A stretch of 64,000 bases of DNA from positions 1,715,001 to 1,779,000 of the forward strand of contig NZ_JAUSZK010000001.1 in assembly GCF_030817495.1 (NCBI RefSeq), written 5' to 3'. Origin of the DNA: Streptomyces sp. V3I7 (lineage in GTDB: Bacteria > Actinomycetota > Actinomycetes > Streptomycetales > Streptomycetaceae). The notes under the pieces were generated by a model, which was given only the letters and a program-made list of their open reading frames with translations, was not told the origin of the DNA and did not search any database. Below, piece by piece: positions 49,794-58,209 of the stretch (positions within the stretch are counted from its first letter, which is position 1; each line of letters begins with the position of its first letter). Both the position numbers and the translations under genes were made by a program.

Positions 49794-51431
49794 TCAGTGG
49801 TGGCCGTGGCCGCTCGTGATCTCCTCGTACTCCTCGGCGGTCGCCTTCGGGATCTGGGAGTCGTCGCCGTAGTAGGCGTTGCTGAGCTTGGCGCGCAGCT
49901 TCTCGGCACCCGTGATCTTCCGCTCGACGCCGTTCTCGTCCACCGCCGGGCCGACCAGGGCCGGCTCGTACTGGTGGTGGGCGGTGAGGGTGTGCAGCTG
50001 CTCCTGGCTGAGCGGCTCGTGGACCTCGATGAACTCACCGTGCGGCAGGCGCTTGATGATGCCGGTCTCCCGACCGTGCAGCACCTTCTCCCGGTCGCGG
50101 CGCTGGAGGCCGAGGCAGATCCGCTTGGTGACGAGGAACGCGATGACCGGTCCGACGAAGAAGAAGATCCGGACGAACCAGGTGACGGCGTTGATCGACA
50201 GGTGGAAGTGCGTGGCCCACAGGTCGTTGCCGCCGCCGACCAGCGTGATCATGTAGATCGTGATCCAGGCGACGCCGAACGCGGTACGCGTCGCGGCGTT
50301 GCGCGGACGGTCCAGGATGTGGTGCTCGCGCTGGTCGCCGGTGATCCAGGACTCGATGAACGGGTAGACCGCGAGCGCGACCAGGACCAGCGGGAAGAGC
50401 ACCAGCGGGATGAACACGCCCAGGACGAGCGTGTGGCCCCAGAAGTTGATCTCCCAGCCCGGCATGAAGCGGATCAGGCCCTCGGCGAAGCCCATGTACC
50501 AGTCGGGCTGGGCGCCGGTCGACACCTGGTCCGGGCGGTAGGGGCCCATGGCCCAGATCGGGTTGATCTGCGCGATGGCCGCGATGGCCGCGATGACACC
50601 GAAGACCAGGAAGAAGAAGCCTCCGGCCTTGGCCATGTACACCGGCAGCAGCGGCATGCCGACGACGTTCGTTTCCTTCTTGCCGGGGCCCGCGAACTGC
50701 GTGTGCTTGTGGTAGAAGACCAGGATCAGGTGCGCCACCATCAGGCCGAGCATGATGCCCGGCAGCAGCAGGATGTGGACCGCGTAGAACCGCGCCACGA
50801 AGTCGTGGCCGGGGAACTCGCCGCCGAAGAGGAAGAACGACAGGTACGTGCCGACGATCGGCACGGACAGGATCGCGCCCTCCATGAAGCGGACACCGGT
50901 GCCGGAGAGCAGGTCGTCCGGGAGCGAGTAACCGGTGAAGCCGGTGAACATGCCCAGGACGAACAGCAGGAAGCCGAACAGCCAGTTGATCTCACGCGGC
51001 TTGCGGAACGCGCCGGTGAAGAAGACGCGCATCATGTGCACGAACATGCCCGCGAGGAAGATCAGGGCGGCCCAGTGGTGGATCTGCCGGATGAGCAGAC
51101 CACCGCGCACGTCGAAGGAGATGTGCAGGGTCGAGCTGAACGCCTCGGACATCAGCTGTCCCTGGAGCGGGACGTAACTGCCGTGGTACTCCACCTCGTT
51201 CATCGACGGGTGGAAGAACAGCGTCAGATACACACCCGTCAGGATGATGATGATGAAGCTGTACATGCACACTTCGCCCAACATGAACGACCAGTGGTCG
51301 GGGAAGATCTTGCGCATGTTGGCCTTGGCCAGGGAGTAGATCCCGAGCCGGCCGTCCGCCCAGTCGGCGATGCGCTCGCCGCGGGGCGCCTGCCCGCCGG
51401 AGCGGGGCTGTTCGTTGGCTGCAGTACTCAT
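49794..51431 (-). CDS. qcrB: Cytochrome bc1 complex cytochrome b subunit
   Basis: A 545-residue membrane subunit holding both b haems and the quinone sites. Eight to nine helices; haem/quinone residues lie in LHISFDVRGGLLIRQIHHWA, VHMMRVFFTGAFRKPREINW, GYSLPDDLLSGTG, and the PEWY-equivalent QPDWYMGFAEGLIRF. The long C-terminal extension (beyond ~420) ending GHGHH is typical of actinobacterial QcrB. Its ATG overlaps the qcrA stop (ATGA). It belongs to the bc1-aa3 supercomplex with the diheme QcrC. Confidence 0.97.
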   Translation of the reverse strand: MSTAANEQPRSGGQAPRGERIADWADGRLGIYSLAKANMRKIFPDHWSFMLGEVCMYSFIIIILTGVYLTLFFHPSMNEVEYHGSYVPLQGQLMSEAFSSTLHISFDVRGGLLIRQIHHWAALIFLAGMFVHMMRVFFTGAFRKPREINWLFGFLLFVLGMFTGFTGYSLPDDLLSGTGVRFMEGAILSVPIVGTYLSFFLFGGEFPGHDFVARFYAVHILLLPGIMLGLMVAHLILVFYHKHTQFAGPGKKETNVVGMPLLPVYMAKAGGFFFLVFGVIAAIAAIAQINPIWAMGPYRPDQVSTGAQPDWYMGFAEGLIRFMPGWEINFWGHTLVLGVFIPLVLFPLVLVALAVYPFIESWITGDQREHHILDRPRNAATRTAFGVAWITIYMITLVGGGNDLWATHFHLSINAVTWFVRIFFFVGPVIAFLVTKRICLGLQRRDREKVLHGRETGIIKRLPHGEFIEVHEPLSQEQLHTLTAHHQYEPALVGPAVDENGVERKITGAEKLRAKLSNAYYGDDSQIPKATAEEYEEITSGHGHH

Positions 51432-52496
51432 CCGCGCTCCCAGAATGCAGGACCGACGGGCTCCTCGAAGTCGCCGAGCGCCTGGAGGTAACCCTCGTCG
51501 TTCACGCCGATGCGGAGCTGCGGCAGGGCGTGACCGGCGGGGCCGAAGATCACTCGGGCACCGTCGGAGAGGTCGAAGGTGGACTGGTGACACGGGCACA
51601 GGACGTGGTGCGTCTGCTGCTCGTACAGGGAGATCGGGCAACCCACGTGGGTGCAGATCTTCGAGTACGCCACGATGCCCTCGTGCGACCACTCGAGCTC
51701 GCGCTTGTCCTTGATGTCGTCCGGCTGGAGCCGCACGATCATCAGGGCCGCCTTGGCGATCTCGGTCTGGAAGTCCTCGGCCTTGTCCTCCAGGCCCTCG
51801 GGCTTGGCGAACGTCAGCGAACCGACGGCGACGTCCTCGGGACGCAGCGGCTGGTTGGTGTTGACGTTGACGAGGAGCTTGCCCTTCGACCACAGCGTGT
51901 GCCGCAGCGAGGTGCCCGGCAGCGGGCCGAGGTCGCGCAGCAGGACGAGGCCGGACAGCGGCACCAGGGTGAGCGCGCCGAGCATCGTGTTGCGGATCAG
52001 CTTGCGGCGGGCCGAGCCCGGACTCCTTGGCGCCCGCCCGGAAGTCCTCGAAGACCTTCGCGCGGACCTCGGGGGTCGCCGAGATGTCGTGCCGCTCGTC
52101 GGTCAGCTCCACGTCGGACATCAGGGTGCGGGCCCAGTGGACCGCGCCCGCGCCGATGCAGAACAGCGCCGTGCCGAGGGTCAGACCCAGCGCGAAGTTC
52201 AGGGCGCTGAGGTGACCGATCGGGAAGACGAAGACCGACTTGTCGGCCGGGATCGTCACATACGCGGCGATGAAGGCGAGGGCGGCCAGCATCGACACCG
52301 TGAACAGCATGGCCACGACGCGCTCGGACCGCTGGGCGGCCCGCTCGTCGATGTCCTGGATCCGGTGCTCGTGCGGCGGCAGACCGGGGTCGGCGAACGG
52401 GTGCTTCTCGTCCGCGACGCTGACGGCCTCGTGCTCGCTGTGTCCTGCGGGCCGCTGGGCCGGCAGGTTCTCTTCTGGAATGTCTTGGCTACTCAT
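51428..52496 (-). CDS. qcrA: Rieske iron-sulfur subunit of bc1 complex, interrupted by a frameshift
   Basis: The actinobacterial three-helix Rieske protein is split over two frames. The first frame (52496 down to about 52010) encodes the N-terminus from MSSQDIPEENLPAQ through helices at about 60-85 and 95-120 to FRAGAKESG. The second frame continues with RRKLIRNTMLGALTLVP and ends with the cluster motifs CTHVGCPISLY and CPCHQSTFDLS. Removing one G:C pair near 52009-52013 would restore KESGLGRRKLIRN and a 355-residue protein. Start ATG overlaps the qcrC stop and the stop overlaps qcrB. The otherwise intact sequence suggests a read error or a very recent mutation. Confidence 0.9.
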
Positions 52497-53305
52497 GACT
52501 TCTTGGCCTTTGCGGTCCGAGCGGCGACCCAGACGGCGACCGCGATCAGGGCACCCAGTCCGAAGATCCATCCGAACAGGCCCTCGGTGACCGGGCCGAG
52601 ACCGCCCAGCTCGAGACCGCCGGGGTTCTCGGTGTTGCTGCTGTTGACCGCGTTCAGGTACGCGATGATGTCCTTCTTGTCCTTCTCCGGCATCGTCGTG
52701 TCGGGGAAGGAGGGCATGTTCTGCGGGCCGGTCTGCATGGCCTCGTAGATGTGCTTCGGGGCGACACCCTCGAGGGTCGGCGCGAACTTGCCCTTGGTCA
52801 GCGCACCACCCTTGCCGGTGAAGTTGTGGCACTGCGCGCAGTTGGTGCGGAACAGCTCGCCACCGTGGGCGATGTCGGCGCCCTGGGGGCCGTACTGCTG
52901 CTCGGTCGGCACCTCAGGACCGGCGCCCAGCGACGCGATGTACGCCGCGAGCTGGTCGATCTGGGCCTGGTCGTAGATGGGCTTCTTGCTCGGGACCTGG
53001 GCACCCTGGGAGGTGGCGGCCGGCATGCGGCCGGTGCTGACCTGGAAGTCCACGGCCGCGGCGCCCACGCCCACCAGGCTCGGCCCGTCGGAGGTGCCCT
53101 GGCCACCGGTGCCGTGGCAGCTGGCGCAGCCGACCGAGTAGAGCTTCTTGCCCTCCTCGATCGTCAGGGACTGGGCCGTTTCATCGGCCTGTGCCTTGCT
53201 CGCGGGCGCGAACGCGGCGTACAGCCCCCCAGTGGCCGCCAGCGCAAGGAGTAGGACGACGACCGCCGCCAGCGGATGGCGTCGTCGTACGGAGAGCTTT
53301 TTCAC
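52493..53305 (-). CDS. qcrC: Diheme cytochrome c subunit of bc1 complex
   Basis: A 270-residue exported diheme cytochrome. N-terminal signal/anchor helix (LAAVVVLLLALAATGGLY), two CxxCH haem sites (CASCHGTGGQG about residue 58 and CAQCHNFTGKGG about residue 158) and distal Met ligands in GRMPAATSQ and MPSFPD regions, then a C-terminal anchor helix GWIFGLGALIAVAVWVAA. The diheme form replaces separate cytochrome c1 and c in actinobacteria and wires bc1 directly to aa3 oxidase. GTG start; stop overlaps qcrA start. Confidence 0.97.
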   Translation of the reverse strand: MKKLSVRRRHPLAAVVVLLLALAATGGLYAAFAPASKAQADETAQSLTIEEGKKLYSVGCASCHGTGGQGTSDGPSLVGVGAAAVDFQVSTGRMPAATSQGAQVPSKKPIYDQAQIDQLAAYIASLGAGPEVPTEQQYGPQGADIAHGGELFRTNCAQCHNFTGKGGALTKGKFAPTLEGVAPKHIYEAMQTGPQNMPSFPDTTMPEKDKKDIIAYLNAVNSSNTENPGGLELGGLGPVTEGLFGWIFGLGALIAVAVWVAARTAKAKKS

Positions 53306-53381: not shown

Positions 53382-54002
53382 TTACTTGATCAGGTAGATC
53401 GTTGCGAAGAGGCCGATCCAGACGACATCGACGAAGTGCCAGTAGTAGGACACGACGATGGCGGCGGTCGCCTGCTCGTGCGTGAACCTCTTGGCCACGT
53501 AGGTGCGGCCGAGGACCAGCAGGAAGGCGATGAGACCGCCCGTCACGTGCAGGCCGTGGAAACCGGTGGTCAGGTAGAACACCGAGCCGTACGGGCCGGA
53601 GGAGAGCGAGAGCCCGTCCTTCGTGACCAGCTCCGTGTACTCGAAGATCTGACCGCCGATGAAGATCGCACCCATCACGAAGGTGACGGCGAACCAGGCC
53701 CGGAGCTTCTTCACGTCACCGCGCTCGGCGGCGAACACGCCGAGCTGACAGGTGAGTGAGGAGAGCACCAGGATCGTGGTGTTGGTCGCCGAGAACGGAA
53801 GGTTCAGCGCGGACGCCATTTCCTTCCAGTACTTGGGACCGGTCACCGATCGCAGGGTGAAGTACATCGCGAAGAGGGCCGCGAAGAACATCAGCTCGGA
53901 ACTCAGCCAGATGATGGTTCCGACGCTGGTGAGGTTCGGCCGATTGACCGACGGGTGCGCGTGCCCGGTTTCTACTGTCGTTGCTGTCGCCACGACCGAC
54001 AT
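53382..54002 (-). CDS. ctaE: Cytochrome c oxidase subunit III
   Basis: A 206-residue, five-helix subunit of the aa3 oxidase. [20 protein letters not shown] in helix 1, the QIFEYTEL region and [19 protein letters not shown] and [18 protein letters not shown] in the last two helices are classic. It heads the ctaE-qcrC-qcrA-qcrB operon (76-bp gap to qcrC). The ATG at 54002 lacks a strong ribosome site; a GTG at 53993 is an alternative. It is divergent from a pseudo-receiver gene. Confidence 0.96.
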
Positions 54003-56080: not shown

Positions 56081-56479
56081 CTACTGCGTGCGGCTCTCAC
56101 CGTGGTAGTACTCGAACACCCAGCCGAACAGACCGATCAGGATGATCGGCGCCGAGAAGTACATCAGCCACCAGCCGACGGCGATGCCGAGGAAGGCCAG
56201 CGCGCCGCCGATGCCGAGCGCGAGCGGCTGCCAGCTGTGCGGGCTGAAGAAGCCCAGCTCGCCGGCCTCGTCCGCGACGTCGGCCTCCTTGTTGTCCTGG
56301 GCACCCGCGTCGACCCGCCGGGCGGTGAAGCCCAGGTAGTAGCCGACCATGATGCACAGGCCGAAGGCCATGACGAGCGCCGTCGTACCGACCGGCTCCT
56401 TCGACCACACGCCATAGACGACCGCCATGACGAGGATGAAGGCGCTCAGCCACATGAACATCCTGCCCTGGATCTTCAC
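56081..56479 (-). CDS. ctaF: Cytochrome c oxidase subunit IV (actinobacterial)
   Basis: A 132-residue, four-helix small subunit special to actinobacterial aa3 oxidases. [21 protein letters not shown] starts helix 1; [21 protein letters not shown] is the hallmark segment before helix 3. GTG start overlaps the ctaD stop by three bases, giving coupled translation. It stabilises the bc1-aa3 supercomplex. Confidence 0.96.
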
Positions 56480-58209
56480 TTGCCGGCCTCCTTGCCGCCC
56501 GCGATGGCACCGGCGTGGCCGGCGTGCTCAAGCTGCTCGAGGGCCGCGATCTCAGGGTGGTGCAGGTCGAACGCCGGGGATTCGCTGCGGATCCGCGGCA
56601 GGGTGAGGAAGTTGTGCCGCGGGGGCGGGCACGAGGTGGCCCACTCCAGCGAACGGCCGTAGCCCCAGGGGTCGTCGACGCCGACCGGCTTGCCGTACTT
56701 GGCCGTCTTCCACACGTTGTAGAGGAACGGCAGGATCGACAGGCCGAGCAGGAACGAGCTGATCGTGGAGATCGTGTTCAGGGCGGTGAAGCCGTCGGCC
56801 GCCAGGTAGTCGGCGTAACGACGGGGCATGCCCTCGGCGCCCAGCCAGTGCTGGACCAGGAAGGTGCCGTGGAAGCCGATGAACAGCGTCCAGAAGGTGA
56901 TCTTGCCGAGGCGCTCGTCGAGCATCTTGCCGGTGAACTTCGGCCACCAGAAGTGGAAGCCGGAGAACATCGCGAAGACGACGGTGCCGAACACGACGTA
57001 GTGGAAGTGCGCCACCACGAAGTACGAGTCCGAGACGTGGAAGTCCATCGGCGGCGAGGCCAGGATGACACCCGTCAGACCACCGAAGGTGAAGGTGATC
57101 AGGAAGCCGACGGCCCAGAGCATCGGGGTCTCGAAGCTCAGTGACCCCTTCCACATGGTGCCGATCCAGTTGAAGAACTTCACACCGGTCGGGACCGCGA
57201 TCAGGAAGGTCATGAAGGAGAAGAACGGCAGCAGCACACCGCCGGTGACGTACATGTGGTGCGCCCACACGGTCACGGACAGACCGGCGATCGAGATCGT
57301 CGCGGCGATCAGACCCATGTAGCCGAACATCGGCTTGCGGGAGAAGACCGGGATGACCTCACTGATGATGCCGAAGAACGGCAGGGCAATGATGTACACC
57401 TCTGGGTGTCCGAAGAACCAGAAGAGGTGTTGCCACAGCAGTGCGCCACCGTTGGCCGCGTCGAAGACATGGGCACCGAACTTGCGGTCCGCCTCCAGGG
57501 CGAACAGCGCGGCGGCCAGCACCGGGAAGGCCAGCAGGACCAGGACACCGGTCAGCAGCACGTTCCACACGAAGATCGGCATGCGGAACATGGTCATGCC
57601 CGGAGCACGCATGCAGATGATCGTGGTGATGAAGTTGACCGAGCCGAGGATCGTGCCGAAGCCGGAGAGGGCCAGACCCATGATCCACATGTCGGCGCCG
57701 AGGCCCGGCGAGCGGACCGCGTCCGACAGCGGGCTGTACGCGAACCAGCCGAAGTCGGCCGCGCCCTCGGGGGTGATGAAACCACCGACCGCGATCGTCG
57801 AGCCGAACAGATAGAGCCAGTAGGCGAACATGTTCAGCCGCGGGAACGCCACGTCGGGCGCGCCGATCTGCAGCGGCATGATCCAGTTCGCGAAGCCGGC
57901 GAAGAGCGGGGTCGCGAACATCAGGAGCATCACGGTGCCGTGCATCGTGAACGCCTGGTTGAACTGCTCGTTGGACATGATCTGCAGGCCCGGCCGGGCC
58001 AGCTCGGCGCGCATGAGGAGCGCCATCACGCCGCCGATCAGGAAGAACGCGAACGACGTCACGAGGTACAGCGTGCCGATCGTCTTGTGGTCGGTGGTCG
58101 TCAGCCACTTCACCACGACGTTGCCGGGCTGCTTGCGCCTGACCGGCAGCTCGTGCTCGTACGAGTCTTCAGCTGCCGCGGCACCCTGGGGTTCGTTGAG
58201 GATGCTCAC
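56476..58209 (-). CDS. ctaD: Cytochrome c oxidase subunit I
   Basis: A 577-residue catalytic subunit with twelve helices, haem a, haem a3 and Cu[13 protein letters not shown] (low-spin haem His), [14 protein letters not shown] with the His-Tyr cross-link, [10 protein letters not shown] (CuB His pair; Tyr replaces the usual Phe) and [15 protein letters not shown] (haem ligands) are all in order. C-terminal cytoplasmic tail GGKEAGK follows. Start ATG overlaps the ctaC stop. It reduces oxygen at the end of the chain fed by QcrC. Confidence 0.98.

Follow-up and report, generated by a model that had tools for sequence, protein, structure and literature searches.

The actinobacterial QcrA (NF050121) is a three-TM Rieske protein of the bcc-aa3 supercomplex, exemplified by Sco2149 of Streptomyces coelicolor. 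In Sco2149, spans 1 and 2 are inserted by Sec and span 3 by Tat, and the twin arginines lie between membrane spans 2 and 3, as described in PMC5449189. S. coelicolor COE192, deleted for the whole qcrCAB to ctaCDF locus, is alive according to PMC7931247. PMC12007338 states that long-read errors fragment genes and are for the most part short indels at homopolymers. In the nanopore assembly of that paper, homopolymer errors were mainly deletions, while insertions occurred mostly after A or T and showed no link to any one homopolymer.

The qcrA locus and its frame change

The window, the whole stretch of 64,000 nucleotides that was analysed, comes from a 6.55 Mb genome assembled in 2 contigs and 99.84% complete (G000). 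Its minus strand carries, in reading direction, ctaD, a small gene, others, ctaE, qcrC, qcrA, and qcrB, which is the usual actinobacterial bcc-aa3 cluster. Positions 52496 to 51428 on the minus strand are qcrA, encoding the Rieske subunit of the actinobacterial bcc complex. The features are as follows.

49794..51431, minus strand: qcrB, intact (family-model match), in the same frame as the first half of qcrA with no stop between
51428..52006, minus strand: qcrA second half, TM3 and Rieske 2Fe-2S domain, in the other frame (PF00355, E 2.1e-9; NF050121, E 3e-83, profile 131-319)
52009..52011: GGG run with the extra base, frame-change site at the twin-arginine (Tat) codons (direct reading and alignments)
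52014..52496, minus strand: qcrA first half, 161 aa (PF19297 QcrA_N, E 1.8e-13; NF050121, E 1.1e-32, profile 2-120)
52493..53305, minus strand: qcrC, intact (NF050122, E 6.3e-115)
53382..54002, minus strand: ctaE, intact (NF050119, E 1.4e-95)
56476..58209, minus strand: ctaD, intact (NF050116, 1023.5 bits)

Family models cover nearly the whole length of ctaD, ctaE, qcrC, and qcrB. The small gene at 56081-56479 could not be matched convincingly to any NCBIfam model.

One extra base in the plus-strand G run 52009-52011 splits qcrA into two frames, as seen by direct reading and in alignments. The site reads GGCGGGCC in G000, versus GGCGGCC (aligned as GGC-GGCC) in the relatives G013 and G007. An earlier note on this DNA had claimed a one-base gain near 52009 that leaves the two halves of the gene in different frames with their motifs intact, and each part of this description was borne out. 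From the ATG at 52496, the first 161 codons stay open down to 52014. The last 192 codons follow in the second frame, with the stop at 51428-51430. The second half holds the ligand boxes CTHVGC and CPCHQS, which agree with the patterns of the Rieske 2Fe-2S site, C-T-H-x-G-C and C-P-C-H. The QcrA_N region at the N terminus and the Rieske domain at the C terminus are both present and in profile order. By analogy with Sco2149, the first half is predicted to comprise TM1, TM2, and the cytoplasmic loop. The locus resembles that of other actinobacterial QcrA proteins in its two profile-matching halves, its gene order qcrC-qcrA-qcrB, its ATGA overlap with qcrB, and its twin arginines between TM2 and TM3, and differs in that one extra base sets the halves in different frames.

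Two features of the break had escaped the earlier note: the join coincides with the Tat motif, and no stop closes the shifted frame anywhere in qcrB. Reading across the join gives KESGLG-RRKLIRN, and RRKLIR is encoded right at the join in the frame of the second half, out of frame with the first half. At the aligned site, 100 of 109 relatives have RRKLIR; the others have RRPLIR (4), RRGLIR (2), RRKLVR (2), or RRKLLR (1). As read, the break would cost the protein its Tat targeting together with its third span and its iron-sulphur domain. The frame that starts at the qcrA ATG remains open to the end of qcrB, 900 codons in all. Since in 66 of the 109 relatives (65 by a looser motif search) the shifted frame likewise has no stop between the motif and the qcrB start, this openness is ordinary in G+C-rich DNA and no sign of adaptation. 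Repeats near the site were limited to a short direct one and two short inverted ones, and none lies at the join.

A gene that works in two separately translated pieces was considered and rejected, as the second-half frame has no ATG, GTG, or TTG before its first ATG at 51985. Because that start comes after the twin arginines, a separately started second half would be without the Tat motif. A second intact QcrA in the genome was rejected as well: six Rieske domains were found in G000, qcrA included, and the three other matches to QcrA were only 41-46% identical over about 60 residues.

Comparison with relatives and selection on the gene

The earlier note had proposed an alignment to the QcrA proteins of close relatives, and none of the 109 loci compared carries the shift. 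These loci combine 29 and 80 from two sets of relatives in which some species may occur twice; the 80 are the best 80 named relatives, all titled Streptomyces, from which the strain's own or very near records were possibly left out. A single continuous reading frame of qcrA is absent from the G000 assembly and present in 109/109 relatives, each with one open frame of 300 codons or more that spans the site and ends at the qcrA stop. The ATGA overlap with qcrB is conserved in all of them. The break is therefore private to G000. Under a stricter rule, an alignment from the first base and a length divisible by three, 106/109 loci passed; L019 and L025 failed because their alignments begin inside the gene. 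The third locus to fail was L113 (the S. afghaniensis 772 draft), whose qcrA lost one base near its start, unrelated to the break in G000. L034 appeared to be a shifted relative, but this was an artefact of the alignment, whose gaps compensate each other; its open frame is 362 codons long. A frame model that uses no relatives gave the qcrA site as the sole frameshift candidate in the 64 kb window.

The search was extended to 392 same-genus genomes, G000 included, with the QcrA of an intact relative as query. A match was obtained in 391, the exception being G103, which is 78% complete. Of these, 389 matched at unsplit strength (E 1.4e-156 or better), and for the weaker rows of the search an unbroken qcrA was inferred from the E-value. 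Only G000 (1.0e-125) and G399 (1.3e-122) fell below this strength. G399 is 55% complete, and its qcrA is broken near residues 100-104 and 316-321, with a TAG in the first piece. The breaks in G399 and L113 lie at other places than the join, and a recurrent hot spot there was rejected.

Selection was assessed by counting rare changes, defined as amino acids seen in no more than two of the aligned sequences, with G000 itself counted. Loci aligned over less than 90% were dropped, which removed 0, 2, 11, and 1 of the 109 for the second half, first half, qcrB, and qcrC, respectively. The second half of qcrA had 0 rare changes in 192 codons, where 109/109 others had as many or more (median 1). The first half, qcrB, and qcrC had 3 in 161 codons, 5 in 545 codons, and 3 in 270 codons, with as many or more in 33/107, 22/98, and 30/108 others, respectively. 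By these counts, selection does not appear relaxed on either half of qcrA, on qcrB, or on qcrC. Normal constraint acted on the gene until now or very nearly until now. The same pattern would be seen in a very young pseudogene, and the lack of rare changes in the second half means that any loss must be very recent.

Error, recent mutation, or slippage

Because the gene is otherwise well preserved, a sequencing or assembly error is the most likely origin of the extra base, followed by a very recent mutation. We consider a consensus error of the assembly the best explanation, with a probability of roughly 0.68, and qcrA is very probably ordinary and functional in the organism itself. On this reading, sequencing or polishing would have introduced the base, which the cell would lack. 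The assembly is in two contigs and therefore probably stems from long reads. The unbroken frame in all 109 relatives, the rarity of a split gene among the 391 matched genomes (only G000 and the poor, elsewhere-broken G399), the absence of rare changes in the 192 codons downstream of the break, and the intact qcrB, qcrC, ctaE, and ctaD all argue for such an error. The case resembles the long-read indels of PMC12007338 in that a single base is affected, in a short G/C run of a conserved gene, and privately to one assembly. However, the homopolymer errors described there are mainly deletions, whereas here a base is gained; a gained G fits that profile poorly, and the G run is only 3 long. The completeness of the assembly also counts against an error. 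The locus serves mostly as a caution, as a single surplus base would lead annotation to record the Rieske subunit as lost although the assembly is otherwise good.

The second and less likely possibility is that the sequenced strain carries a real null mutation of qcrA, of very recent date, and respires through cytochrome bd. The ribosome would read TM1-TM2, then about 190 out-of-frame residues, and continue through qcrB (900 aa), so that the Rieske protein would be missing and QcrB probably defective. The uninterrupted frame of 900 codons is in keeping with this course, but the alternative frame is also open up to the start of qcrB in the majority of relatives counted above, and its openness does not indicate adaptation. 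Four cydA genes, each with an adjoining cydB, lie in contig C1 of G000 at 286456-288783, 3318773-3321234, 6318390-6320897, and 6334125-6336608. Since COE192 lives without the locus and G000 has these four pairs, a real loss would probably be viable. Four is the highest cydA count among 37 same-genus genomes, own included; the maximum in the others was three when pieces of one gene were merged (G003, G004, G018), and in a second family of the order, three genomes had four or five matches. Two of the G000 pairs are separated by about 15 kb and sit some 155 kb away from the end of the contig. A null mutation nevertheless has to be reconciled with the absence of relaxed selection in both halves, qcrB, and qcrC, with the intact bcc-aa3 neighbours, and with a same-genus search in which the only other split gene came from the poor assembly G399. 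If real, it would make this a natural bcc-null Streptomyces-like strain, not unprecedented in kind given the viable S. coelicolor deletion (PMC7931247). Such a strain, with its four cytochrome bd loci, would be useful.

The earlier note had left three options side by side: an error, a real loss, and programmed slippage. The first two stand in that order of preference, and the third is disfavoured, as the site lacks conservation, a stop codon, and structure. Programmed +1 frameshifting of the prfB type is the known system for comparison. The G000 site shares with it the required direction of the slip and an SD-like hexamer upstream, and differs in having no in-frame stop, conservation, or structure. 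Programmed +1 frameshifting at the twin-arginine codons that makes full-length QcrA and meters Tat targeting is very improbable, and so, to the same degree, is a real extra base combined with slippage, by which a fraction of chains would gain the Tat motif and Rieske domain while the rest run into a QcrB fusion. The break does fall exactly on the Tat motif, with the SD-like AAGGAG just upstream and intact motifs on both sides of the join, yet the shift occurs in 0/109 relatives, and AAGGAG is simply the Lys-Glu codons, found in 89/109 unbroken relatives. The site codons GGG CTC GGC CCG CCG place no stop codon in the A site, and the first-half frame meets no stop through qcrB. By reasoning, a +1 slip would be followed by poor re-pairing, and none of the codons would be rare in DNA of this kind. 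In one 120-base stretch around and downstream of the site, no pseudoknot-free RNA structure stood out (z +1.11; 179/200 shuffles folded at least as well), and a roughly matching stretch of L037 gave z -0.78. Within the collection of papers covered, none joined programmed frameshift, Rieske, and Streptomyces. Nothing points to a special mechanism at the qcrA break.

One-base changes elsewhere in the assembly

Frameshift candidates from the frame model numbered 12 for G000 (1.2 Mb scanned), 11 for G013 (0.8 Mb), and 3 for G007 (0.4 Mb), and not every one of these is real. By reasoning, the model is biased towards gains, since in such DNA a frame shifted by a loss is soon closed by a stop. Per Mb, G000 has no more candidates than the one-contig G013, which speaks against a consensus error and in favour of a real mutation. 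Among the 12 candidates of G000, an aligned relative was available for 3 (qcrA, a dienelactone hydrolase family gene, and a tricorn/S41 peptidase gene) and for none of the other 9. Two of those 9, an NAD-glutamate dehydrogenase gene and a siderophore-interaction-like gene, were compared with five relatives each, and an extra base was established for the former only. The remaining seven may include true pseudogenes or false calls.

The dienelactone hydrolase family gene (L123, about 10010; G000:C1:1685010), with PF01738 in its second piece, is split and has one G more than G013 and G007. The NAD-glutamate dehydrogenase gene (L222, about 16514; G000:C1:2671514), identified by PF05088 and related domains, is split by one C that is lacking in 5/5 relatives. 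Like that in qcrA, these one-base gains lie in G/C runs of conserved genes, and they favour a sequencing or assembly origin for it. The tricorn/S41 peptidase gene (L200, about 3516; G000:C1:2218516) changes frame near its end through a one-base gain relative to G013 only.

Polarised gap counts, in which an indel is private to one of G000, G013, and G007 against the other two, depended on the flank rule. With strict flanks, private short indels (gains/losses) numbered 8/0, 3/2, and 2/1 for G000, G013, and G007, respectively, and the fact that all 8 in G000 are gains again favours an error in qcrA. With lax flanks, private one-base events numbered 8/8, 3/4, and 2/1 in 231-237 kb each, and the balance in G000 weighs against it. 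Because gains and losses are balanced under the lax rule (8/8 in 235 kb), a general insertion-error signature in G000 is not established. The larger indel total of G000 may reflect errors or a longer branch.

The frame model also marked a frame change in an aminoglycoside acetyltransferase-like gene of G000 (L115, about 11733; G000:C1:1526733). In G013, three frameshift candidates, at about 2371002, 2454000, and 2463502 of G013:C1 (L136, L140, and L140, respectively), are one-base gains relative to both G000 and G007.
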